From Leucothrix arctica (GTDB taxonomy: Bacteria; Pseudomonadota; Gammaproteobacteria; Thiotrichales; Thiotrichaceae), in assembly GCF_003172895.1 (NCBI RefSeq), contig NZ_QGKL01000039.1, positions 248,001 through 312,000 of the forward strand: a stretch of 64,000 bases of DNA, in the 5' to 3' direction. Position 1 is the first letter of the stretch; the number at the start of each line of letters is the position of its first letter. A program made the translations under genes and the position numbers. The notes beneath the pieces are model-generated. The model searched no databases. It was not told the origin of the DNA and saw only the letters and a program-made list of their open reading frames with translations. Positions 40,345 through 53,890 of this stretch are shown in pieces.

Positions 40345-40758
40345 TTAGGGTGTTGTAACCCCAGTCCAAGCACGAACCTTCTCAAGGTAGAGACCAAAAG
40401 GACGGCTGATGACCAACATAATGAGCGACACTGATGCCATTAGAGTGAGTATTTCACTGCCATCTGCACCCGCTATGACAAGCGTTATCGCATAGATAGG
40501 AAGTTGGAAAGACATGAATGCAAGGCTATCGATAAGGGTCTTGCTCCAGACGTTTGTTGGGTTGGTGACTTTGAAGGCCCAGTCACGCCATACCCCATAA
40601 GGGCGGCCTGTTAATACCATCATTGGGATCATGATCAGGCGCGTTGTCAACATTTCGCTAAAGGCCATGCCGGCAATAAATATTTCTGTGGTTGCTGCGA
40701 GAATAGTGAAGAAGACGACTGTGGCGACAGTGTCGATGATGAAGCTGCGCATTTTCAT
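40345..40758 (-). CDS. alaE: L-alanine exporter AlaE
   Basis: 137 residues, four hydrophobic segments. It opens with FIIDTVATVVFFTILAA and carries GRPYGVWRDW and SRPFGLYLEKVRAW, typical of the AlaE family, which exports L-alanine when it builds up in the cell. Single gene, convergent with DAHP synthase. Confidence 0.9.
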   Translation of the reverse strand: MKMRSFIIDTVATVVFFTILAATTEIFIAGMAFSEMLTTRLIMIPMMVLTGRPYGVWRDWAFKVTNPTNVWSKTLIDSLAFMSFQLPIYAITLVIAGADGSEILTLMASVSLIMLVISRPFGLYLEKVRAWTGVTTP

Positions 40759-40949: not shown

Positions 40950-40964
40950 GAGCGGTAACCGCTC
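40950..40964. promoter_or_regulatory. Palindrome GAGCGGTAACCGCTC, candidate activator site 1
   Basis: A 15-base palindrome about 100 bases before the histidine kinase gene. Two closely related palindromes lie before the ABC operon at 45373 and 45405. No sigma-54 promoter was seen next to this copy, so here it may mediate autoregulation. Confidence 0.65.
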
Positions 40965-41055: not shown

Positions 41056-42732
41056 TTGAAATCTTACTTACACCAATTAACGTTGGTGAAACGTTATTTG
41101 TGGGTGTCTTTAAGTCTCACAGTCATTCCACTCGTCATTATTGTTGCGTTGTATGATGGCCACAATGCCTCCCTTGCTAATCGTCTGCTGCTTGAAAAAA
41201 CAGAGGGAGAGATTCAAGCAACCGTTGTAAAGCTAGAAAGTTTTATCGACGTTCAAATCAAAAGGCTAAATGACCTAGCAGACCTGCAAGTGTTTGATAG
41301 TGTGTTTAACCGACAACTTCAAACACCTATTTTTTCTGAACAGTTGTTAGATTTTTTATATTTTGAAACTAGTGATGTCGATATATATAGCATTGAATTC
41401 TATGATGACAATGGGCTGTTTTTGTCATCCCTACCAAAGTCTAATGAAAAGGTTAACTACCTTCGTGAGTCAGGAACTCAAGTCGACCTAGTCACTGTGT
41501 CTGACCCAGTTTTACCGAGTTCTGGAAAGCCTGGGTGGTTTCATATTTATAAACGTGTGATTCGTAGAGCTGAAACGATTGGAACTATAGCCTTGAAGGT
41601 TAGGTTGAGTTCATTAACTGAAAAAACAGCCTCTCTTTATCATGCTGGTATCTACGAACCTGTCATTTTTACGCCTAATAAGAAGTCATTAAATACAGTC
41701 GGCACTGTCATAAATCATGAAGTTTCGCTCATTAACTCCCAGACCTTTATGGCTGGTTGGCATATTGGTTTAAAACAAAATAGTCAGCCGGTTGTGAAAA
41801 CAGGAGTTAGGCATTGGTTACTATTTTTAGTGCTGCTAATGGCGGTCGGCATTATTTCACTTTTTTTAAGTATGTCCCGACGATTGGCTAGCTGGGTAAT
41901 TCCGTTAAGTGATGGTGCTAGAGCGATCTCAAGAGGAGAGCTAAACGTCAAAGTAGCAGAGGATGGACCGGGAGAGTTAGGTATGTTGGCACGTTCGTTT
42001 AATGATATGAGTGATCAGCTAAGCTCAATGATCGAATCACGAGTAGATGTAGAACGAAGAGCGGCACTGGGTAATTTAGCGACTGGAATAGCGCATGAAA
42101 TTCGTAATCCATTAGCGACCATAGGGACAACGGTTCATGGTTTGATTGGTTCTGAAAAGAGCCCAGAACGAAAAAAAATGTTAGAGGCCGTGGATGACGA
42201 AATCATACGTACGGATGCAATCGTAGAAGAGTTCATGAACTATGCGCGTCCACGTGAACCAAAAATGGAAACAGTCTCGATCAGTGACGTCTTTGATCAT
42301 GTAAAAATATTGGTTTCAGCAACCGCTTTAGAGTCAGACGTTGAAATTAATTTGTTAGGCCAACGGTCTTTAATGGTGTTTGCTGACTTAGGGCACTTAA
42401 GGCAAGTATTGATGAACATTATTTTCAATGCATTGCAGGCTATGCCAAATGGGGGGCATTTACGCTTAAGAGCGGTGGCCAAAGGAGATGTTGCTGAGAT
42501 TACTATTTCTGACACAGGTATCGGTATAGACGCTGATAAGTTAGCAAGCGTACAGCAGCCATTTTTCACCACTAAAAGAAGTGGTACAGGTTTAGGTTTA
42601 TCAATATGTGCCCAATTGATTCAGTCCAATAATGGCTCATTAGATATTGATAGCCACCCAGGGGTCGGTACAACCGTCACCATAAGCCTCCCTTTGTTAA
42701 ACAGTAATGATTTAGAAGGTGGCAATAAATGA
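41056..42732 (+). CDS. Sensor histidine kinase (NtrB-like) of a three-component system
   Basis: 558 residues from a TTG with GGAGAT eight bases before it. Two membrane helices (about 14-33 and 253-272) flank a periplasmic sensor region of some 220 residues. Then come HAMP, HisKA (H347 in GIAHEIRNPLATIG) and the ATPase domain (NALQAMPNGG, SDTGIGI, GTGLGLSICAQL). The stop overlaps the next start in ATGA. It should phosphorylate the neighbouring sigma-54 activator. Confidence 0.92.
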   Translation: MKSYLHQLTLVKRYLWVSLSLTVIPLVIIVALYDGHNASLANRLLLEKTEGEIQATVVKLESFIDVQIKRLNDLADLQVFDSVFNRQLQTPIFSEQLLDFLYFETSDVDIYSIEFYDDNGLFLSSLPKSNEKVNYLRESGTQVDLVTVSDPVLPSSGKPGWFHIYKRVIRRAETIGTIALKVRLSSLTEKTASLYHAGIYEPVIFTPNKKSLNTVGTVINHEVSLINSQTFMAGWHIGLKQNSQPVVKTGVRHWLLFLVLLMAVGIISLFLSMSRRLASWVIPLSDGARAISRGELNVKVAEDGPGELGMLARSFNDMSDQLSSMIESRVDVERRAALGNLATGIAHEIRNPLATIGTTVHGLIGSEKSPERKKMLEAVDDEIIRTDAIVEEFMNYARPREPKMETVSISDVFDHVKILVSATALESDVEINLLGQRSLMVFADLGHLRQVLMNIIFNALQAMPNGGHLRLRAVAKGDVAEITISDTGIGIDADKLASVQQPFFTTKRSGTGLGLSICAQLIQSNNGSLDIDSHPGVGTTVTISLPLLNSNDLEGGNK

Positions 42733-44063
42733 GTTCAATAAAATGCTTAATTATTGATGATGAAGTTCAGTTGGCAAAGTCACTGTCTTACACGTTAAAT
42801 TTGTCTGATATTAGTTGTATTGAGGCATATGACGGGAGTAGTGGTTTAGAGGCGTTGCAAGAGCATCGACCAGATATTGTTTTATTAGATTTAAGATTAC
42901 CTGATATGTCGGGCTTGGAAGTATTAGCAAAAATAACTCAGTTGAGTTTAGACATTCCTGTGATCATGATTTCGGCTCATGGACAAACCAAAGATGCGGT
43001 CAGTGCGATAAAACAAGGTGCTGTTGATTACTTAACTAAACCATTTGATGTTGAGGATCTTGTGCGGTTAATCAATAGAACCTTGACTCAAAAGCGTTTG
43101 ACTAAAGAGGTTCAGTATCATCGTAAGAAAGTAATATCTTCACAAACCTTAATTGGTGAAAGTCAGATTATGCGAACGTTGGTTGCTGACCTAGAAAATA
43201 TAGCGAAAAGTAAGGCTAGAACCATTTTACTCAGTGGAGAAACGGGGGTTGGTAAAACTATTGTTGCTAAAGAAATCCATAATAAATCAGACAACAAAAA
43301 CTCACCCTTTGTAGAGATTAACTGTTCATCATTACCCGAAAACCTCATTGAAGCAGAGTTATTCGGTGTAGAAAAAGGTGCTTACACCGGAGCCAATTCA
43401 ACGCGTGTTGGATTAGTTGAAGTAGCAGAAAAAGGCACACTATTCTTAGATGAAATAGGTGAGCTCCCCTTAAATTTACAAGCTAAGTTATTAACGTTAT
43501 TGGAGTCTTGGACCTACAGAGCCGTTGGTTCAACGCGAGAAAAAAAGGCCGATATTCGTGTCATTGTAGCGACAAATCGAAACCTTGAAGAAAGTGTAGA
43601 GAAAGGTGAGTTTCGGAAAGATCTATTTTTCAGGTTAAATATTATTCCTATTGAAGTACCTGCATTACGCTATCGAGGTGATGATATTTGGTTGCTTGCA
43701 AACTGCTTTGCCGAGCGTTTATCAAGTCGTGAAGGGTGTTTGCCTTTGGTGATGCCTAATAATATTCGAGTCATTTTTGAAAAATATGATTGGCCTGGAA
43801 ACGTTAGAGAACTAAAAAATATTATTGAAAGATTAACGATCTTATACCCGAATAAAACGATCATACCGGCATGGTTGCCGATAGATCTAAGAGGCTCTCC
43901 CAGTAAGAGCGATAACATTAAAGATGCCATCCATGATGCTGAAAGGGAGTTAGTGCAGAGAGCGTTAGGAGAATGCGATGGCAAAAAAGGGTTAACGGCT
44001 GAAAAACTAGGTATCTCTCGTCATGCATTGAAGCGTCGTATACAAAAACTAGGTCTAGAGTGA
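42729..44063 (+). CDS. NtrC-family sigma-54-dependent response regulator
   Basis: 444 residues. The receiver domain has D54 (VLLDLRLPD). The AAA+ domain has Walker A (SGETGVGKT), the sigma-54 contact loop GAYTGA and Walker B (LFLDEIGEL). A Fis-type helix-turn-helix ends the protein (KKGLTAEKLGISRHALKRRI). The GAYTGA loop indicates activation of -24/-12 promoters, and one lies before the ABC operon downstream. Overlaps both neighbours, so kinase, regulator and binding protein form one unit. Confidence 0.94.
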   Translation: MSSIKCLIIDDEVQLAKSLSYTLNLSDISCIEAYDGSSGLEALQEHRPDIVLLDLRLPDMSGLEVLAKITQLSLDIPVIMISAHGQTKDAVSAIKQGAVDYLTKPFDVEDLVRLINRTLTQKRLTKEVQYHRKKVISSQTLIGESQIMRTLVADLENIAKSKARTILLSGETGVGKTIVAKEIHNKSDNKNSPFVEINCSSLPENLIEAELFGVEKGAYTGANSTRVGLVEVAEKGTLFLDEIGELPLNLQAKLLTLLESWTYRAVGSTREKKADIRVIVATNRNLEESVEKGEFRKDLFFRLNIIPIEVPALRYRGDDIWLLANCFAERLSSREGCLPLVMPNNIRVIFEKYDWPGNVRELKNIIERLTILYPNKTIIPAWLPIDLRGSPSKSDNIKDAIHDAERELVQRALGECDGKKGLTAEKLGISRHALKRRIQKLGLE

Positions 44064-45325
44064 TTTATCCGATGATGAAACTAAGAAATCAAAACTGTCT
44101 GAGGTTGCTTCTGTATTGTTTGATGACATTTCAATTATTAACAAATGCTGTAGCTGCTACCGATACAACCACTGATGTTGTGAAAGTCGGCTGCTTGTAT
44201 CCGCTGATAGGGCCCGGCGGACTATACGGTCGAGACAGTGTTGCCGCGATTAAAATTGCTTTAGACGACTTAAAAAATTCAACTCAATATGATTATCCGA
44301 CGTTAGAAGTTTTGCTGGGTGATACCCGTTCCAAGTCATTGCGAGCGGTACACATTGCCCGTGGTTTTATCAAGGATGACAATGTCGACTTTTTGTGTGG
44401 TGTAGTGAGTTCAAAAATCGCATTAGAAGTGACTGAAGTTGCAAAAGAAAATGAGGTGTTTTTTATTGGTACAGACCATGCATCACCGCGTTTGATTGAT
44501 GAAATGTTACATCCTTATTATTTTCGAGTTAGCAATGGAACAAGGCAATCCATGCAAGCTGGGGCAAAATATATTAAACAAAACTATTCTCACAAACCTA
44601 ACTTAAAAATTGCTTTTATTGGCCCAGATTATGATTACGGTTATCAGGCATGGGAAGACTTGCGGTTTTTCTTAAAAAAAGAAAAAGTACCGTTTGAAAT
44701 TGTAGGTGAATACTGGCCAAAATTATTTGAAACAGACTACTCAATCTATGTACATGAGTTGAACGCAAGTCAGCCTGACATCGTTGTAAATGGTCATTGG
44801 GGACAAGACTTTGTTACCTTTATTAAACAAGCTAAGCCTTTAGGTTTGTTTGATAATGCCAACATTATGAATTTTGATGCGGGTGGTAACTACGCAACCT
44901 TAGTGGCGATGGGAGACGATATGCCAATAGGTTTGGTTTTGTCCGCTAGGCATCATGTTAATTGGCCTGAAACAGAAAAAAACCGACATTTTGTAGAAAC
45001 CTTTAGAGAGCGAGTAGGGCGATACCCAAGCTATGCCGCAGAAGGTGCTTATGCCGGTATCATTGCTATTGCTGAGTCTGTGCGCTTAGCGTCCAATAAG
45101 AATGATAAAGATCAGATACGGCATAACTTAGAAAACTTAGTCGTTAATTTGCCTGAGGATCCCGCTGGATTTTCTTCTCATATGGATCCTGTTAGTCACC
45201 AAATACTACAAGTCCAAGCTATAGGGAAAACGGTTCTCAATAATGAATATAAACCCGCCAAAGTACTTTTGGGTGATTGGTTTATACACTTTCCTAGTAA
45301 GCAGCTTCCTGCTGTATCCAACTAA
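44060..45325 (+). CDS. Branched-chain-type periplasmic binding protein linked to the two-component system
   Basis: 421 residues from a GTG overlapping the regulator stop (GTGA); an ATG at 44072 is an alternative. The signal peptide ends near VAA. The body is a type I periplasmic fold (VKVGCLYPLIGPGGLYGRDS, RVSNGTRQSMQAGAKYI, AFIGPDYDYGYQ). It sits in the kinase-regulator operon, and the ABC operon has its own binding protein. It may therefore present ligand to the kinase; a role in transport is not excluded. Confidence 0.85.
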   Translation: MIYPMMKLRNQNCLRLLLYCLMTFQLLTNAVAATDTTTDVVKVGCLYPLIGPGGLYGRDSVAAIKIALDDLKNSTQYDYPTLEVLLGDTRSKSLRAVHIARGFIKDDNVDFLCGVVSSKIALEVTEVAKENEVFFIGTDHASPRLIDEMLHPYYFRVSNGTRQSMQAGAKYIKQNYSHKPNLKIAFIGPDYDYGYQAWEDLRFFLKKEKVPFEIVGEYWPKLFETDYSIYVHELNASQPDIVVNGHWGQDFVTFIKQAKPLGLFDNANIMNFDAGGNYATLVAMGDDMPIGLVLSARHHVNWPETEKNRHFVETFRERVGRYPSYAAEGAYAGIIAIAESVRLASNKNDKDQIRHNLENLVVNLPEDPAGFSSHMDPVSHQILQVQAIGKTVLNNEYKPAKVLLGDWFIHFPSKQLPAVSN

Positions 45326-45372: not shown

Positions 45373-45387
45373 GAGCGGCTACCGCTC
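45373..45387. promoter_or_regulatory. Palindrome GAGCGGCTACCGCTC, candidate activator site 2
   Basis: Matches the palindrome at 40950 except in the central bases. Its centre is about 32 bases from the next copy, close to three helical turns, so both lie on the same face. It sits upstream of the sigma-54 promoter, as enhancer sites usually do. Confidence 0.75.
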
Positions 45388-45404
45388 GTACATAATTATA
45401 TTTC

Positions 45405-45419
45405 GAGCGATAACCGCTC
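45405..45419. promoter_or_regulatory. Palindrome GAGCGATAACCGCTC, candidate activator site 3
   Basis: The third copy, extended by one base on each side (C...G). Its centre is about 105 bases upstream of the expected transcription start, a typical distance for an NtrC-type enhancer. Confidence 0.75.
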
Positions 45420-45491
45420 GCACTTATTCTTCTTTTAGCTCAATGTAATAATAAGTTATTTTAAATCAGTGGTTTATGTTTTTATTACTGG

Positions 45492-45508
45492 TTGGCATGT
45501 TGTTTGCA
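45492..45508 (+). promoter_or_regulatory. Sigma-54 (-24/-12) promoter of the ABC importer operon
   Basis: TTGGCATGTTGTTTGCA matches the consensus TTGGCACG-N4-TTGCW at nearly every position. GG (45494) and GC (45506) are exactly 12 bases apart. Transcription should start near 45519, giving a leader of about 77 bases before the binding-protein gene. Confidence 0.85.
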
Positions 45509-45595
45509 ATGTTTATTAGTAGTACAGAAAAGAGCCGTAAAAAGCTGTTTATTATTTTCAGTATGAAGACAACATATTCCGAGGAGGAATTGATC

Positions 45596-46903
45596 ATGCA
45601 AAACAATACTCAAGTCTTGTCAAAGCGCACATCAATCTGGCTAGCCATTTTGGCTGTTTCGAGTGTCGCTGCCACTTTTTCAACGCAAGCTGTCGCAGAT
45701 GATAAAGAAGTGAAGCTCGGCATAGTTACATTCTTGTCTGGTGGAGCCGCTGGTCCTTTTGGTATTCCGGCTCGTAACGCTGCCGAGTTAATGGTCGAAT
45801 CAATTAACGCGGGTACAGTCCCAGCGCCATACTCGGCTAAAGGATTAGCGGGAGCAATGGTGACGCCGATTTATGTCGATGAGGCGAGTAAGCAGAAAGT
45901 TGCTGATTATAAAAAATTAGTCCAGAAAGATAGCGTTGACGCAATTGTTGGCTATATTTCTTCTGGAAGTTGTAAAGCTATTGCGCCAGTCGCTGAAGAA
46001 GAGAAAAAACTAACGGTACTCTTTGACTGTGGCACACCGCAAATCTTTGAAGATATTGTGACAGAGCCGAAGTACGTTTTCAGAACAGCAGCACACGCGA
46101 CAATGGATAACGTCGCCGCCGCTAAATATGTTTTGGATACGCACCCCGATGCAAAATCGATTGCCGGTATCAATCAAAACTACGCGTGGGGACAAGATTC
46201 TTGGCGTGATTTCTCAGCATCAATGGCTGTACTTAAAACTGATGTGACCACCACAACGGAACAATTTCCTAAAATATATGCAGGTCAGTACGGCTCAGAA
46301 ATTTCTGCATTATTGACGAAAAAGTCAGACATTGTTCACTCTAGTTTTTGGGGTGGAGATATGGAAGCGTTGGTTATTCAAGGTGGCGGTAGAAGCTTGT
46401 TTAAACGTAGTCAGGTAGTGCTCACTGCAGGTGAAACGGCTATTGAAGGCTTAGGCGCACAGATGCCTGATGGCACAATCATTGGTGCTCGTGGTCCCAA
46501 TGGTCCGTTAGCGCCAGATAATGCGTTAAATGATTGGTTCCAAAAAGCGTATTCAGATCGTTATGGATCAAGCCCAACATACCCTTCATACCATATGGCA
46601 CAGGCGATTTTAGGTGTTAAAGCAGCAATGGATAAAGCTGGTTCAACGGATCAAGAAGCAGTAATAGCAGCACTAAAAGGCTCTACGTTTGAATCTCCAA
46701 GCGGCACGGTTTCTATGGCGTTATCTGATGGTCATCAAGCGATTCAAGAAACGGCTTACGGTACTTATAAGTTTGATAAAGAGACTGGTAAGAGCACGTT
46801 AGTTAACATCAAACGTTATGCCGCAAACTGTGTTAATCCTCCTGAAGGCACTAAAAGTATCGACTGGATCAAATCTGGTTTTAAAGGTGCTGACTGCAAG
46901 TAA
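45596..46903 (+). CDS. ABC importer substrate-binding protein, branched-chain amino acid type
   Basis: 435 residues from the ATG at 45596, preceded by GAGGAGGAATTGATC. The frame is open further upstream to 45476, but that part holds the sigma-54 promoter and is not coding. The signal peptide ends near AVA-DD. The fold is type I (VKLGIVTFLSGGAAGPFGIPARNAAEL, GYISSGSCKAIAP, NQNYAWGQDSWRDF). The ligand is unknown; the family takes amino acids, amides, urea and aromatic acids. First gene of a five-gene importer operon. Confidence 0.9.
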   Translation: MQNNTQVLSKRTSIWLAILAVSSVAATFSTQAVADDKEVKLGIVTFLSGGAAGPFGIPARNAAELMVESINAGTVPAPYSAKGLAGAMVTPIYVDEASKQKVADYKKLVQKDSVDAIVGYISSGSCKAIAPVAEEEKKLTVLFDCGTPQIFEDIVTEPKYVFRTAAHATMDNVAAAKYVLDTHPDAKSIAGINQNYAWGQDSWRDFSASMAVLKTDVTTTTEQFPKIYAGQYGSEISALLTKKSDIVHSSFWGGDMEALVIQGGGRSLFKRSQVVLTAGETAIEGLGAQMPDGTIIGARGPNGPLAPDNALNDWFQKAYSDRYGSSPTYPSYHMAQAILGVKAAMDKAGSTDQEAVIAALKGSTFESPSGTVSMALSDGHQAIQETAYGTYKFDKETGKSTLVNIKRYAANCVNPPEGTKSIDWIKSGFKGADCK

Positions 46904-47029: not shown

Positions 47030-47926
47030 ATGTTAACTGCAGTCGCTATAGCGGTAGATGGCTTGGGCTTTGCCGCCTGGCTTTTTCTATCCTCCGTTGG
47101 TTTAACACTGATTTATGGTGTTATGCGTATTTTGAACATTGCTCACGGTGGGTTTTACGCACTGGGTGCCTACTCGTCGGCATGGGCTATTGGTTTGTAT
47201 ACACAAACTGGATCAACAATCGCTTTAACTTATTTAATTATTCCATTAGCAGCTCTTGCGGTGGGTGTTATCGCTGGCTTGCTTATTGAGCGGGGCATTT
47301 TGCGCTTCATGTATGGCCGTGATGAAGTGTTAATGGTGCTAGTGACTTATGCAATTTTTCTTATCTTAGAAGATGTGACTAAGTTGATTTGGGGGACAGG
47401 TTCAATGGTCGCTTATCAACCGGCATACTTCCTAGGAACCATCGAGATTTTTGGTATCCCATACACCATCTATAAACTTTGTTTGGTTGGATTAGCCATC
47501 GTCGTCGGCGCCGTACTTTGGTGGGGATTGAACCGCACTCGTATAGGTAAACTTTTGCTCGTGGTTATTGAGGACCGAGAAATAAGTCGTGCATTAGGCA
47601 TTAATGTCACATTGTTTTTTACGGTGACCTTTGTCATCGGCGTCACCTTAGGTGCTTTGGGAGGGGCTGTGACCGCACCTCAGATTTCAGTCGTTCCAGG
47701 GATTGGTGCCGAAATTATCGTTATGGCTTTTGCCGTCATCGTGATTGGTGGAATGGGCAGTATCGGAGGCGCAATCATCGGAGCCATCTTTGTTGGTTTT
47801 GCTAGAGCCTTGTCCGTTCACCTCTACCCGCCTGCTGAACTATTTTCCATCTACCTTGTGATGGCAGTCGTCTTAGCCTTTAAACCTTATGGTCTGTTCT
47901 CATTAGCAGAAGGGAGAAAGATATGA
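47030..47926 (+). CDS. Branched-chain-type ABC importer permease, LivH family
   Basis: 298 residues, about eight membrane helices. LTLIYGVMRILNIAHGGFYALGAY is the LivH start, and EDREISRALGINV marks the ATPase-contact loop. It forms the inner-membrane channel with the next gene product. AGGAGAGCAT precedes the ATG. Overlaps the LivM-type gene in ATGA. Confidence 0.93.
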   Translation: MLTAVAIAVDGLGFAAWLFLSSVGLTLIYGVMRILNIAHGGFYALGAYSSAWAIGLYTQTGSTIALTYLIIPLAALAVGVIAGLLIERGILRFMYGRDEVLMVLVTYAIFLILEDVTKLIWGTGSMVAYQPAYFLGTIEIFGIPYTIYKLCLVGLAIVVGAVLWWGLNRTRIGKLLLVVIEDREISRALGINVTLFFTVTFVIGVTLGALGGAVTAPQISVVPGIGAEIIVMAFAVIVIGGMGSIGGAIIGAIFVGFARALSVHLYPPAELFSIYLVMAVVLAFKPYGLFSLAEGRKI

Positions 47927-48885
47927 GGTCTCAATTAGATCGTACTGAAAAACTCCTAATCGTTGGTCTTCCCATTTTGATTGCCTTAGGTTTTATATTA
48001 CCTGAGTGGATCGTTAATTATATTCAAGTGTCGCTAGGCACAGGTCTAGTTGCTCTGGGTGTCATGATTCAAATGCGAGCGGGTTTAGTGAGTTTTGGCC
48101 AAGGTTTGTATTTCTGTATCGGTGGATATGCTGCGGGAATGGCGGGTAAGTTCTTAGGTATTTCAGATATCTTTCTGCTACTTGCTTGTGGTCTTATCGC
48201 GAGTGTCACGATTGCTTTTGCGGCGGGTTTTTTATTACGTCGTTATCGTGAAATTTTCTTTGCCATGCTGTCACTAGCACTATCAATGATCCTATTTGGT
48301 CTGCTCTCGAAGTTAGAGATGTTAGGAAGTACTGATGGATTTAATCTACCTAGCGCGACTTATCTTGGATGGGCGCCAGAAGGTGATACGGCCAAACATG
48401 CGCTTTATGTCGCAACCTGCATCCCAACGATTATTTGTGCCTTCTTACTAAACCGCTATCTTCGCAGCCCTATGGGTTACATCGGTGAAGCGTTGCGTGA
48501 AAATGAAATTCGTTTGGAGTATTTAGGGACTTCTGCGCACCGAGCGGTACATATTAAATATGTCATCGCAGCGGGTGTGTCTGGTATCGGTGGGGTTTTA
48601 TGGGCGTTAGCACTGGGCCATGTCGACCCAGAAATGACAAACTGGACGACCTCCGGTCAATTTGTATTTATCTCCATATTGAGTGGTACGGGTAATATTG
48701 TTGCACCCTTGTTTGGTACTTTTATCCTAGAAATTGTGCGTGTCTATGCGGTTGAGTTATCACCCAATACTTGGCAAATGATTCTCGGCACATTGATGCT
48801 GTTAACCATCATCTTTTTACCAAGAGGACTTTGGTCCTTGATACAAGAAAAGAAGCATGCCAAAAAGAGTGGAGGTGAAAAGTGA
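47923..48885 (+). CDS. Branched-chain-type ABC importer permease, LivM family
   Basis: 320 residues, about nine membrane helices. Typical LivM features are MIQMRAGLVSFGQGLYFCIGGYAAG and the coupling loop GYIGEALRENEIRLEYLG. Partner of the LivH-type permease; overlaps both neighbours by four bases. Confidence 0.92.
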   Translation: MRSQLDRTEKLLIVGLPILIALGFILPEWIVNYIQVSLGTGLVALGVMIQMRAGLVSFGQGLYFCIGGYAAGMAGKFLGISDIFLLLACGLIASVTIAFAAGFLLRRYREIFFAMLSLALSMILFGLLSKLEMLGSTDGFNLPSATYLGWAPEGDTAKHALYVATCIPTIICAFLLNRYLRSPMGYIGEALRENEIRLEYLGTSAHRAVHIKYVIAAGVSGIGGVLWALALGHVDPEMTNWTTSGQFVFISILSGTGNIVAPLFGTFILEIVRVYAVELSPNTWQMILGTLMLLTIIFLPRGLWSLIQEKKHAKKSGGEK

Positions 48886-49670
48886 GTACTATTCTTGAAA
48901 CGGTCAACTTAGAACGAACGTTCGGTGCGGTTGTTGCCGCCTCAAATATTAATATAAAAATATCTGCTGGCGAAATACTGGGTGTTATCGGCTCTAATGG
49001 TGCGGGTAAAACGACTTTCGTCAACATGGTAACGGGCTATTTAAAGCCTAGCTCTGGAAAGATTTTATACCGTGGTGAAGATATTACAGGTAAGCCAACC
49101 CGCGATATAACTCGCTTAGGTATCTGTCGTTCATTTCAGATACCACAGCTATTCCTTGAGTTGCCCGTCATAGACAACATCATTATCGCTTTGACCATCG
49201 CAAAGGAGGTTAAGCCATCATTATTGAAACCTGCTATCACGCCTGAAATAGTTGATGAGGCGATGGAGATTCTAAAGCGTTTTGAAGTGGCCCAATATGC
49301 AGAGAGTGAAGTTGGTGTATTGGCACAGGGGATTCGTAAGTTAGTCGATATTGCCATGGCTACCGTTAATAACCCCGACTTACTCTTTTTGGATGAACCA
49401 ACCAGTGGTGTTAGTGCTGAAGAAAAAATCCAGATTATGGATGTTTTAATGGCTGCGTTAAAGACCACTAAAACAGCAGTACTGTTTATAGAGCATGATA
49501 TGGAAATCGTTGAAAAATACGCTCCTCGTGTCGCGGCATTTTATGAGGGTACCATCCTAGCTGATGGCCCAACAGGGGAGGTTTTGGATGACCCGAAAGT
49601 GCGCGAGTTTGTAATAGGAACAGAATTTCATCGGAAAGTAGAAGAGAATCAAGTAGGAGGGTCAGTCTGA
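48882..49670 (+). CDS. Branched-chain-type ABC importer ATPase, LivG family
   Basis: 262 residues. Walker A is GSNGAGKTTFVNM, the Q-loop region is GICRSFQIPQLF, Walker B is LLFLDEPTSGVS, and the His switch is IEHDMEIVE. The signature is LAQGIRKLVDIA in place of LSxGQ, a variation seen in the urea/amide branch of this family. GTG start overlapping the LivM stop, with GGAGGTGAAAA upstream. Confidence 0.93.
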   Translation: MSTILETVNLERTFGAVVAASNINIKISAGEILGVIGSNGAGKTTFVNMVTGYLKPSSGKILYRGEDITGKPTRDITRLGICRSFQIPQLFLELPVIDNIIIALTIAKEVKPSLLKPAITPEIVDEAMEILKRFEVAQYAESEVGVLAQGIRKLVDIAMATVNNPDLLFLDEPTSGVSAEEKIQIMDVLMAALKTTKTAVLFIEHDMEIVEKYAPRVAAFYEGTILADGPTGEVLDDPKVREFVIGTEFHRKVEENQVGGSV

Positions 49671-50332
49671 TGTTGACGATTAATAATTTGAGTTTGTCGA
49701 TTCAAAAAGTCCCTATCTTGAATGATATTGAGTTATCAATTGAGAAGGGGCAGACCGTGGGTTTGATAGGCCGTAATGGTGCTGGAAAAACTACATTGAT
49801 GCGCGCAATTATGGGACTGATCGAGCTGGAGTCTGGTGAGATTTTTTATAAGGACACCGCTCTTCATCAGTCTAAAGCCTTTAAACACGCGCTTCTCGGT
49901 ATTGGTTATTTGCCCGAGGATCGACGCTTAGTGCCCCACTTTACTGTCGAAGAAAACATTATGGTGCCGCTGTGGGCTAATAAAAATGCTGACTTGAAGC
50001 GCGTTAAATGGGTGTATGAACTGATGCCCGAGATAGGGCGTTTTGCTGATCGGCGCGCACTGACGTTAAGTGGTGGACAACAAAAGCTAGTGGCGTTAGC
50101 GAGAGCCTTAGTGGTTGGCTCTGACTTGTTGTTATTAGACGAACCTTTTGAAGGTGTGGCACCCGCACTGGCTCAACGTTTGATGGAAGTTATTTCTAGC
50201 CTTAAACAAGAGCACTTATCGGTACTTATTTCAGAGTCAGATTATTCACATTCTGAAAAAGTGGTGGATAAAGTGTACTCCATTGAGCGAGGATCAATTA
50301 GTACATTTAATCATGATGCGGTAGTCGCATAA
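49670..50332 (+). CDS. Branched-chain-type ABC importer ATPase, LivF family
   Basis: 220 residues. Walker A is GRNGAGKTTLMRA, the signature LSGGQQKLVALARAL, and Walker B LLLLDEPFEGVAP. GIGYLPEDRRLVPHFTVEEN is the typical LivF stretch. It shares one base with the LivG stop. Last gene of the operon, followed by a strong terminator. Confidence 0.93.
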   Translation: MLTINNLSLSIQKVPILNDIELSIEKGQTVGLIGRNGAGKTTLMRAIMGLIELESGEIFYKDTALHQSKAFKHALLGIGYLPEDRRLVPHFTVEENIMVPLWANKNADLKRVKWVYELMPEIGRFADRRALTLSGGQQKLVALARALVVGSDLLLLDEPFEGVAPALAQRLMEVISSLKQEHLSVLISESDYSHSEKVVDKVYSIERGSISTFNHDAVVA

Positions 50333-52582: not shown

Positions 52583-53890
52583 TTAATTGAGGAGAACCAA
52601 ACTGAGTTGCGGATAAGCAATCAGGATTATAAGTACAACAAGCATCACTGCTGCAAACGGAAGCGCACCCAGAAATACATCCTTGAGCGTTATTCGATCA
52701 TCATTAAGTGAGGCCTTAATAACGAAGCAGGAGATGCCCAGTGGCGGGGTGAGGAGACCGATTTCAGCACCGACAACCGTCACGATACCGAACCAAACAA
52801 GTGATAAACCCATTGGCTCAATCAGTGGTAAGAACAGCGGAACAACGATCAAAATGATAGAAGCGGTATCCAGCAGTGTTCCTAAAAACAGCATCAGTAA
52901 TACATAGAAAACCATGATCTGGAATAGCGCGAAATCACTGTTCGTCATGTACTCGCCCAGTTGATTAGGCAAGCCTGCTAAACCAAGCATTCGACTATAA
53001 ATAGACGCAGCGGTGATCAAGAACAAGATAGTCGCGGTGATATGACCGGTCTCTATCAGTACTTCCCAAAAGCCTTTCAACGTCATGCTGCGACGCAAAA
53101 CCGCGATCACTAAACCGGCTAACGACCCAGCGGCACCCGCTTCAACCGGTGTCATCCAACCCGTATAAATACCACCTAATACAATCGTAATAAGTGACAG
53201 TGTTGGCAGTGTTTTTGAGGCTATTTCTTTCCACGGCATGCGCTCGTAGTCAGAGGCTGGTCTGCCGCCAACAAACTTAGGAAATAGCTTACCCATTCCC
53301 CAGATTGCACCGATGTAAGCAATGGCCAACATAATGCCAGGCACAACACCTGCTAAGAACATATCGCCCACTGACTGCTCAGCGACAAACGAATAGATAA
53401 TGAGCATAGCAGATGGTGGAATGATCATCCCTAGTACCGATGATCCAGCAACAACACCAACGGCAAAGCGTGGGTTGTAGCCATTCTTCAACATCTGTGG
53501 GACGGAGACTTTTGCAAACACAGACGCAGAGGCAATAGAGGAGCCTGTTACCGCAGCAAAGACTGCATTTGCACCAACAGTTGCCATACCGATACCACCT
53601 TTAACACGACGGAAACCGGTACTCATTACTTCATAGATGTCTGACCCTAGTCTGGCCTTGGAGACTATGAGCCCCATAAAGGTAAACAAGGGGATGGTGG
53701 CAAACGCGTACTCCATTGCGCTATCGCCAATGGCGACTTTAAGTAAGTTAACGGAAAGGTCGAAGTTATCACGCATCAGCCAAATCGAAACAAACGATAC
53801 AGCGGCTAGTGCAATGGGAATGTAGACGCCTATATAAATCAGCAGGACAATCGCTACAACTGAAATGGCACCAATTTCAATAGGAGACAT
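52583..53890 (-). CDS. TRAP transporter large permease (DctM)
   Basis: 435 residues, about 12 membrane helices. Typical DctM stretches are FATIPLFTFMGLIVSKARLG, GANAVFAAVTGSSIASASVFA, GSSVLGMIIPPSAMLIIYSFV and EIGLLTPPLGI. It moves the substrate with sodium after delivery by the binding protein. Shares one base with the small permease gene. Confidence 0.94.
   Translation of the reverse strand: MSPIEIGAISVVAIVLLIYIGVYIPIALAAVSFVSIWLMRDNFDLSVNLLKVAIGDSAMEYAFATIPLFTFMGLIVSKARLGSDIYEVMSTGFRRVKGGIGMATVGANAVFAAVTGSSIASASVFAKVSVPQMLKNGYNPRFAVGVVAGSSVLGMIIPPSAMLIIYSFVAEQSVGDMFLAGVVPGIMLAIAYIGAIWGMGKLFPKFVGGRPASDYERMPWKEIASKTLPTLSLITIVLGGIYTGWMTPVEAGAAGSLAGLVIAVLRRSMTLKGFWEVLIETGHITATILFLITAASIYSRMLGLAGLPNQLGEYMTNSDFALFQIMVFYVLLMLFLGTLLDTASIILIVVPLFLPLIEPMGLSLVWFGIVTVVGAEIGLLTPPLGISCFVIKASLNDDRITLKDVFLGALPFAAVMLVVLIILIAYPQLSLVLLN

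Follow-up and report, generated by a model that had tools for sequence, protein, structure and literature searches.

A one-locus, substrate-induced sigma-54 circuit very probably drives the operon of an ABC importer in Leucothrix arctica, judging from its sequence and that of its relatives. We analysed a stretch of 64,000 nucleotides (the window; contig NZ_QGKL01000039.1, positions 248,001 to 312,000), in which a neighbouring sensor system seems to turn on a nutrient importer via two DNA sites and a special promoter. A preliminary description of this DNA had proposed a sigma-54 circuit with sites, activator and target all within 10 kb. Each of these is present, and the proposal is supported by the relatives: the pair of palindromic sites recurs in all 17 further loci compared and the -24/-12 promoter element in 15 of them, and RpoN is encoded in the genome. 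Absent from that earlier account were the second binding protein, SBP2 (44060-45325), and the question of the substrate.

The sensor side of the locus consists of three genes on the forward strand. A sensor histidine kinase (41056..42732) carries HAMP, HisKA and HATPase_c domains, and its residue 347 is probably the phospho-accepting histidine. The N-terminal sensor region of the kinase has no Pfam match, and the structure model of the protein reaches a pLDDT of 75.7 and a pTM of 0.44. A fold match for the sensor region was dropped, as the top 50 Foldseek matches were mostly kinase domains. The second gene encodes an NtrC-type response regulator (42729..44063) with a receiver, a Sigma54_activat AAA+ domain and a Fis-type HTH (PF00072, PF00158 and PF02954, all above cut-off). 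It is not NtrC proper: the TIGR01818 equivalog scores 379.7 bits against a cut-off of 558.6. The GAYTGA sigma-54 contact loop, which had been read in the activator before, is confirmed at residues 217-222 (43377..43394, + strand), and the same loop variant is also given for Ralstonia activators (PMC4676750). Part of the Fis-type HTH, GLTAEKLGISRHALKRRIQKLGL, lies at 43989..44057 (+ strand). SBP2, the third gene product (44060..45325), is a type I periplasmic binding protein (Peripla_BP_6) and the proposed signalling receptor. Both the kinase/regulator and the regulator/SBP2 junction overlap by 4 bases, and the three genes look like one operon. In front of them, between the DAHP synthase and kinase genes, lies a gene for an AlaE L-alanine exporter (window 40345-40758, reverse strand, PF06610).

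The target operon, also on the forward strand, encodes the substrate-binding protein of the importer (SBP1, Peripla_BP_6, 45596..46903), two permeases of the BPD_transp_2 family (47030..47926 and 47923..48885) and two ATPases. The best NCBIfam matches are UrtD and LivG for ATPase 1 (48882..49670) and UrtE for ATPase 2 (49670..50332), all below cut-off. The importer as a whole is not Urt by cut-off, with 83.4 bits against 492.75 for UrtA, 152.9 against 250.3 for UrtB and 122.4 against 296.2 for UrtC; for the ATPases the figures are 191.9 against 304.1 (UrtD) and 189 against 285.8 (UrtE). The likely first codon of SBP1 is the ATG at 45596, which follows GAGGAGG and lies 87 nt past the -12 element. 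We regard the start chosen by the ORF caller (ATG 45476) as unlikely: it precedes the -24/-12 element, so that the promoter would fall within the SBP1 gene.

Three palindromes had been reported for this locus, and direct reading of the sequence finds them where they were placed. Putative enhancer palindrome 1, GAGCGGCTACCGCTC, is found at 45373..45387 and palindrome 2, GAGCGATAACCGCTC, at 45405..45419, 32 bp apart from start to start. They are centred at about -139 and -107, reckoned from an assumed transcript start near 45519, a figure from the preliminary description. The third, GAGCGGTAACCGCTC, lies at 40950..40964 ahead of the kinase gene and is a candidate autoregulatory site. A motif scan of the window with up to two mismatches gave 18 matches against a shuffle mean of 7.93, and none of 100 shuffles reached 18. 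In the whole genome of 4.75 Mb, GAGCGNNNNCCGCTC occurs without mismatch at these three sites only (3 forward and 2 reverse rows in the search, against 1 and 0 for the reversed control). As for the question whether the palindrome is scattered over the genome, the strict motif is thus confined to the locus, but looser versions are not enriched: GAGCGGTWACCGCTC with up to two mismatches has 7 places, including the three sites, against 12 for the reversed control, and the relaxed GAKCGNNNNNCGMTC has 16 against 11. Only this locus has two sites close together; at none of the other GAKCGNNNNNCGMTC places genome-wide is there a second one close by. The four further GAGCGGTWACCGCTC places are C2:42928, C2:105411, C11:98982 and C37:556585 (contig and position), of which the two on C2 were rejected as further operator sites, being within ORFs and having no partner nearby. 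Two of the 13 further GAKCGNNNNNCGMTC places were examined, namely C2:42928 and C33:300685; the latter corresponds to window position 52685, inside the ORF at 52583-53890.

The sigma-54 promoter consensus is TGGCAYR-N4-TTGCW. A near-consensus -24/-12 element of the form TTGGCATG-N4-TTGCA had been noted before the importer operon, and it can be read directly at 45492..45508 (+ strand) as TTGGCATG-TTGT-TTGCA, with GG and GC 12 bases apart. Searching the whole genome for the string gave 2 exact places; when up to two mismatches were allowed, there were 183 rows, compared with 119 for the reversed control. On its own the string is therefore only mildly over-represented and not remarkable; its weight comes from its position and conservation. 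RpoN is encoded in the genome (PF04552, E = 1.2e-67), and rpoN was found in 7 of 8 genomes checked, this one included.

A search for the regulator in 57 related genomes returned one clear orthologue besides the genome's own (G010, 74%; the next match 45%). SBP2 orthologues were collected as six loci from one public scan and by profile searches at E up to 1e-80. Among genomes of the window's class the profile matched in 1 of 369, and among those of its order in 2 of 63; it also matched in 12 of 116 genomes in the family of genome G405, and in 3 of 385 and 2 of 25 genomes in the class and family, respectively, of G403; these genome sets overlap and the class sets are samples. We compared 18 distinct loci (the window, L044-L050 and L068-L077). 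L048 and L050 belong to the cultured relatives Neptuniibacter marinus and Neptuniibacter pectenicola. Left out were L078, which is the same place as L046, and L051-L055, L064, L065 and L084, which duplicate counted loci, while L056-L063, L066 and L067 were replaced by longer stretches before counting. The loci are not independent, as several are near copies, and they represent about a dozen lineages.

The gene order kinase, regulator, SBP2 is found in all 18 loci; since these were found through SBP2, the neighbouring kinase and regulator are what this count tests. The relaxed motif GAKCG-N5-CGMTC was defined on the first eight loci, and a pair of palindromes 30-34 bp apart is present in 18 of 18. 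In 13 loci the two sites each match at 9 or more of the 10 arm positions; in L044 and L047-L050 a perfect site is paired with a degenerate one (7 or 8 of 10). All ten loci fetched after the motif was set have the pair at 30-33 bp with both sites at 9/10 or better. In no locus of the 18 did any of 300 dinucleotide shuffles score as high as the observed pair; this test allowed spacings of 31-34 bp only and in L075 scored a poorer pair (6 and 10). The better pair in L075 is 30 bp apart, a spacing that the first eight loci (31-34) did not predict. Across 311,351 bases there are 22 pairs of sites (at least 9/10) lying 16-120 bp apart; all precede the kinase or the target operon, and 18 are spaced 31-33 bp. 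Perfect sites are likewise concentrated, with 43 of 48 in the zones in front of the kinase or target operon and 5 outside. In 16 of 18 loci the pair is followed by a -24/-12 element that deviates at no more than one of 12 positions and lies 68-101 nt past the start of the nearer site (about 83 in L075). The HTH motif SRHALKRR is conserved in 17 loci and reads SRHAFKRR in L075.

Other arrangements than that of the window also occur. In L076 and L077 the palindrome pair lies between regulator and SBP2, upstream of SBP2, which would therefore join the regulated operon. In L075 (reverse strand) the ABC operon behind the sensor cassette, the pair and the -24/-12 element is another one of branched-chain type, which includes carbamoylase-like and amidase genes, and therefore the cassette can pair with other transporters.

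Eight of the 18 loci also have palindromes (at least 9/10) within 420 nt ahead of the kinase. The window has one; L044, L046-L050 and L068 have two each. Behind them, a weak -24/-12 element (2-3 off) is present in L047-L050 and L068 only. In the window, the third palindrome lies before the kinase as described; no -24/-12 element is found behind 40950 when searching up to 3/12 off with GG and GC in place, so sigma-54 autoactivation through this site finds no support in this genome, and it may act on another promoter.

The loop loss in two of the relatives is the part that a specialist would look at twice. The regulators of L045 and L046 read GAIPGI in place of the sigma-54 loop, which is GAYTGA in 15 loci and GSYTGA in L076. 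These are also the only loci in which the -24/-12 element is missing (best match 4 off in L045 and 3 off in L046); no element with GG and GC in place, up to 3 off, exists in their SBP2-SBP1 intervals. Loop loss and promoter loss thus coincide in both loci and in none of the other 16. Both retain SRHALKRR in the DNA-binding helix, and their paired palindromes still match at 9 or 10 of 10. In a tree of the 18 regulators and six outgroups, rooted at the midpoint and with a program warning of long outgroup branches, L045 and L046 form one clade (100/100), sister to the window plus L044 (96/99). The outgroup loops read GAFTGA in four of six cases, with GAFTNA in L016 and GAFTSA in L017. Because the clade is nested within the family, the loss looks derived and like a single co-loss, that is, one event seen in two metagenome assemblies. 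The genome of L046 contains rpoN; in that of L045, assembled from a metagenome and of unstated completeness, no rpoN was found. No sigma-70 promoter is claimed for these loci: the best -35/-10 candidates are weak (8/12 each) and at different places. The two loci share TAATTGTTG shortly after the nearer palindrome and at equal distance from it, and also TGGGAGGA further down.

NtrC proteins without GAFTGA occur in Caulobacter and Rhodobacter and are reported to act at sigma-70 promoters (PMC10274813). The L045/L046 regulator resembles them in being NtrC-type and lacking the sigma-54 loop. Unlike in those proteins, from which the motif is deleted, the loop is substituted here (GAIPGI), and at one orthologous locus the operator pair is kept with the -24/-12 element missing (comparison with the cases described in PMC10274813).

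Taken together, the circuit would work as follows. SBP2 would bind the nutrient in the periplasm and signal to the kinase, which would phosphorylate the NtrC-type regulator. Phosphorylation by the partner kinase is general for regulators of this family. The regulator would then bind the two palindromes, which are conserved about three helical turns apart, and its AAA+ assembly would reach over a short loop of DNA to make contact, via the GAYTGA loop, with sigma-54 polymerase at the -24/-12 element. This contact would open the promoter of the SBP1-permease-permease-ATPase-ATPase operon, a step that the joint loss in L045 and L046 supports. The kinase operon may be tuned through the single site at 40950. 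Once imported, the compound would be oxidised by an Fe-alcohol dehydrogenase (Fe-ADH) and a succinate-semialdehyde dehydrogenase (SSADH), both encoded in or beside the operon in relatives, with candidates elsewhere in the genome of L. arctica.

E. coli NtrC commands a wide regulon and, unlike here, its kinase is not encoded with a binding protein. At E. coli glnA, NtrC sites lie about 90 and about 140 bp upstream of the start and activation proceeds by looping (PMC7408454). The tandem activator sites upstream of a sigma-54 promoter are thus alike in the two systems; E. coli NtrC differs in answering a nitrogen signal, whereas the present regulator serves one locus through another operator sequence (PMC7408454).

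It might be argued that the palindromes are indeed sites of the regulator, with the importer transcribed from some other promoter and the -24/-12 string there by coincidence. The mild over-representation of the string (183 against 119 control rows) and the two loci, L045 and L046, that keep palindromes without the element would agree with this. Against it stand the narrow placing of the element in 16 of 18 loci and its absence only where the sigma-54 loop is absent too; moreover, we estimate, assuming equal base frequencies, that a match with at most one of 12 positions off would turn up by chance about 0.002 times in a stretch of 140 nt. We consider coincidence very improbable. As loop and element are lost together, the link between activator and promoter is supported, and the sigma-54 promoter remains our preferred reading. 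A second objection concerns SBP2, which could instead be a second, spare transport protein, using the importer together with SBP1. Both belong to one Pfam family; the SBP2 model (type I binding protein, pLDDT 88) has as nearest PDB folds binders of amino acids, urea, aromatic acids and amides, mostly transport proteins; and in L076 and L077 SBP2 is on the importer side of the enhancer pair. Nonetheless, SBP2 adjoins kinase and regulator in 18 of 18 loci. It is also retained in L069-L072 (4 of 18, viewed at locus level), where SSADH, Fe-ADH and a permease replace the ABC importer. With a permease of this kind, a binding protein of the SBP2 fold serves no obvious purpose, which makes a receptor likely. 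Experimental precedent exists in CuaDSR of Ruminiclostridium cellulolyticum, in which a second binding protein acts with kinase and regulator and controls an ABC importer (PMC10384115). There too, a dedicated binding protein, kinase and regulator share one operon and control a neighbouring ABC importer (CuaABC-CbpA) that has its own binding protein and a catabolic gene; the differences are an AraC-type HTH regulator against the NtrC-type one here, the cellobiose ligand and the Gram-positive host (PMC10384115). In the window a binding-protein gene lies beside those of kinase and regulator in a conserved arrangement, which is what marks a three-component system. SBP2 is probably a signalling receptor, as in CuaDSR, and its role as a spare transport protein is unlikely.

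With respect to the substrate, the downstream genes give a clue. Fe-ADH is encoded there in 15 of 18 loci (lacking in the window, in L045, where the contig ends, and in L075) and SSADH in 14; the window's locus and L075 have neither. All nine SSADH proteins scanned (L044, L048, L068, L069, L070, L072, L073, L076 and L077) are above the TIGR01780 cut-off, but that of the PRK11241 equivalog is attained by none of those scanned. Of the Fe-ADH proteins, those of L048, L069 and L. arctica itself were scanned and fell short of every NCBIfam cut-off; with the 4-hydroxybutyrate dehydrogenase model they score 264, 215 and 234 bits, respectively, where 500 is required. Therefore the family does not settle the substrate of this enzyme. 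L046 adds a homologue of vinylacetyl-CoA isomerase 6vjr (716 bits), which also matches the GABA-pathway dehydratase/isomerase 1u8v (536 bits). The genome of L. arctica has an Fe-ADH of its own elsewhere (59% to that of L044), near an SSADH-like gene that scores 645.7 against the TIGR01780 cut-off of 646.35, and both are near PHA-regulator, phasin, PhaE and PhaC-like genes. In this stretch (C29:163500-177500), SSADH-like, PHA regulator, phasin, acetolactate synthase, Fe-ADH, PhaE, PhaC-like synthase and CoA-transferase genes are clustered, which possibly represents a polymer pathway using 4-hydroxybutyrate. The cluster holds no relaxed palindrome without mismatch and one with a single mismatch, inside the PhaR gene.

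The enzymes of blcABC belong to gamma-butyrolactone and 4-hydroxybutyrate catabolism. In Pseudomonas putida the Fe-ADH PP_2049 (of PP_2046-2051) is required for growth on 4-hydroxybutyrate (PMC7090098). The present loci resemble blcABC of Agrobacterium (PMC4231840) and PP_2046-2051 (PMC7090098) in pointing to this catabolism; they differ from blcABC, which is under the repressor BlcR (PMC4231840), and no sigma-54 enhancer system figures for either in the portions of text covered (PMC4231840, PMC7090098). No paper on 4-hydroxybutyrate uptake was found in the literature searched. Overall, 4-hydroxybutyrate or something converted to it is the likeliest imported compound, with about an even chance. 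As the window's own locus is without Fe-ADH and SSADH, this substrate is one that we infer, and the same lack suits a urea-, amide- or nucleobase-like compound instead. The importer subunits find their best NCBIfam matches among Urt models, none of which reaches cut-off, and this fits such a compound too, as do the genes for an amidase and carbamoylase-like proteins beside the same sensors in L075. The permease of L069-L072 points in that direction as well: this hydrophobic protein (L069:11999-13366, L070:11846-13243, L072:11869-13233, and also in L071; the four are 85-100% alike) has no Pfam match above cut-off and, in those scanned, no NCBIfam match, and the one searched (L070) gives 382 bits to PDB 7tak, named PurT. 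The frequency of Fe-ADH and SSADH among the loci, the SSADH scores (that of L. arctica just below the cut-off) and the homologue of 4-hydroxybutyryl-CoA dehydratase/vinylacetyl-CoA isomerase in L046 all speak against such a compound, and we rate it a real contender at somewhat less than an even chance.

Every step of the proposed mechanism has precedents; the system itself belongs to a known kind of circuit. Among the titles and abstracts listed, our literature searches returned no description of such a system. Going further, we tentatively suggest that the activator of L045 and L046 moved from sigma-54 to another form of polymerase by substitution of its loop, with operators and helix kept and the -24/-12 element gone, and that the system is a dedicated 4-hydroxybutyrate sensor and importer; on balance we lean slightly against this combined proposal being right in full. 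If it is true, both halves of a sigma-factor switch would be visible at one locus. Since loop and promoter element disappear together, nature supplies a comparison by which the evolution of activator-sigma pairing can be tested directly. If the substrate is 4-hydroxybutyrate, the locus would name an uptake and sensing system for that compound. As the circuit has its sites, activator, likely receptor and target within 10 kb and recurs in about a dozen lineages, it provides an operator code for one family of activators.
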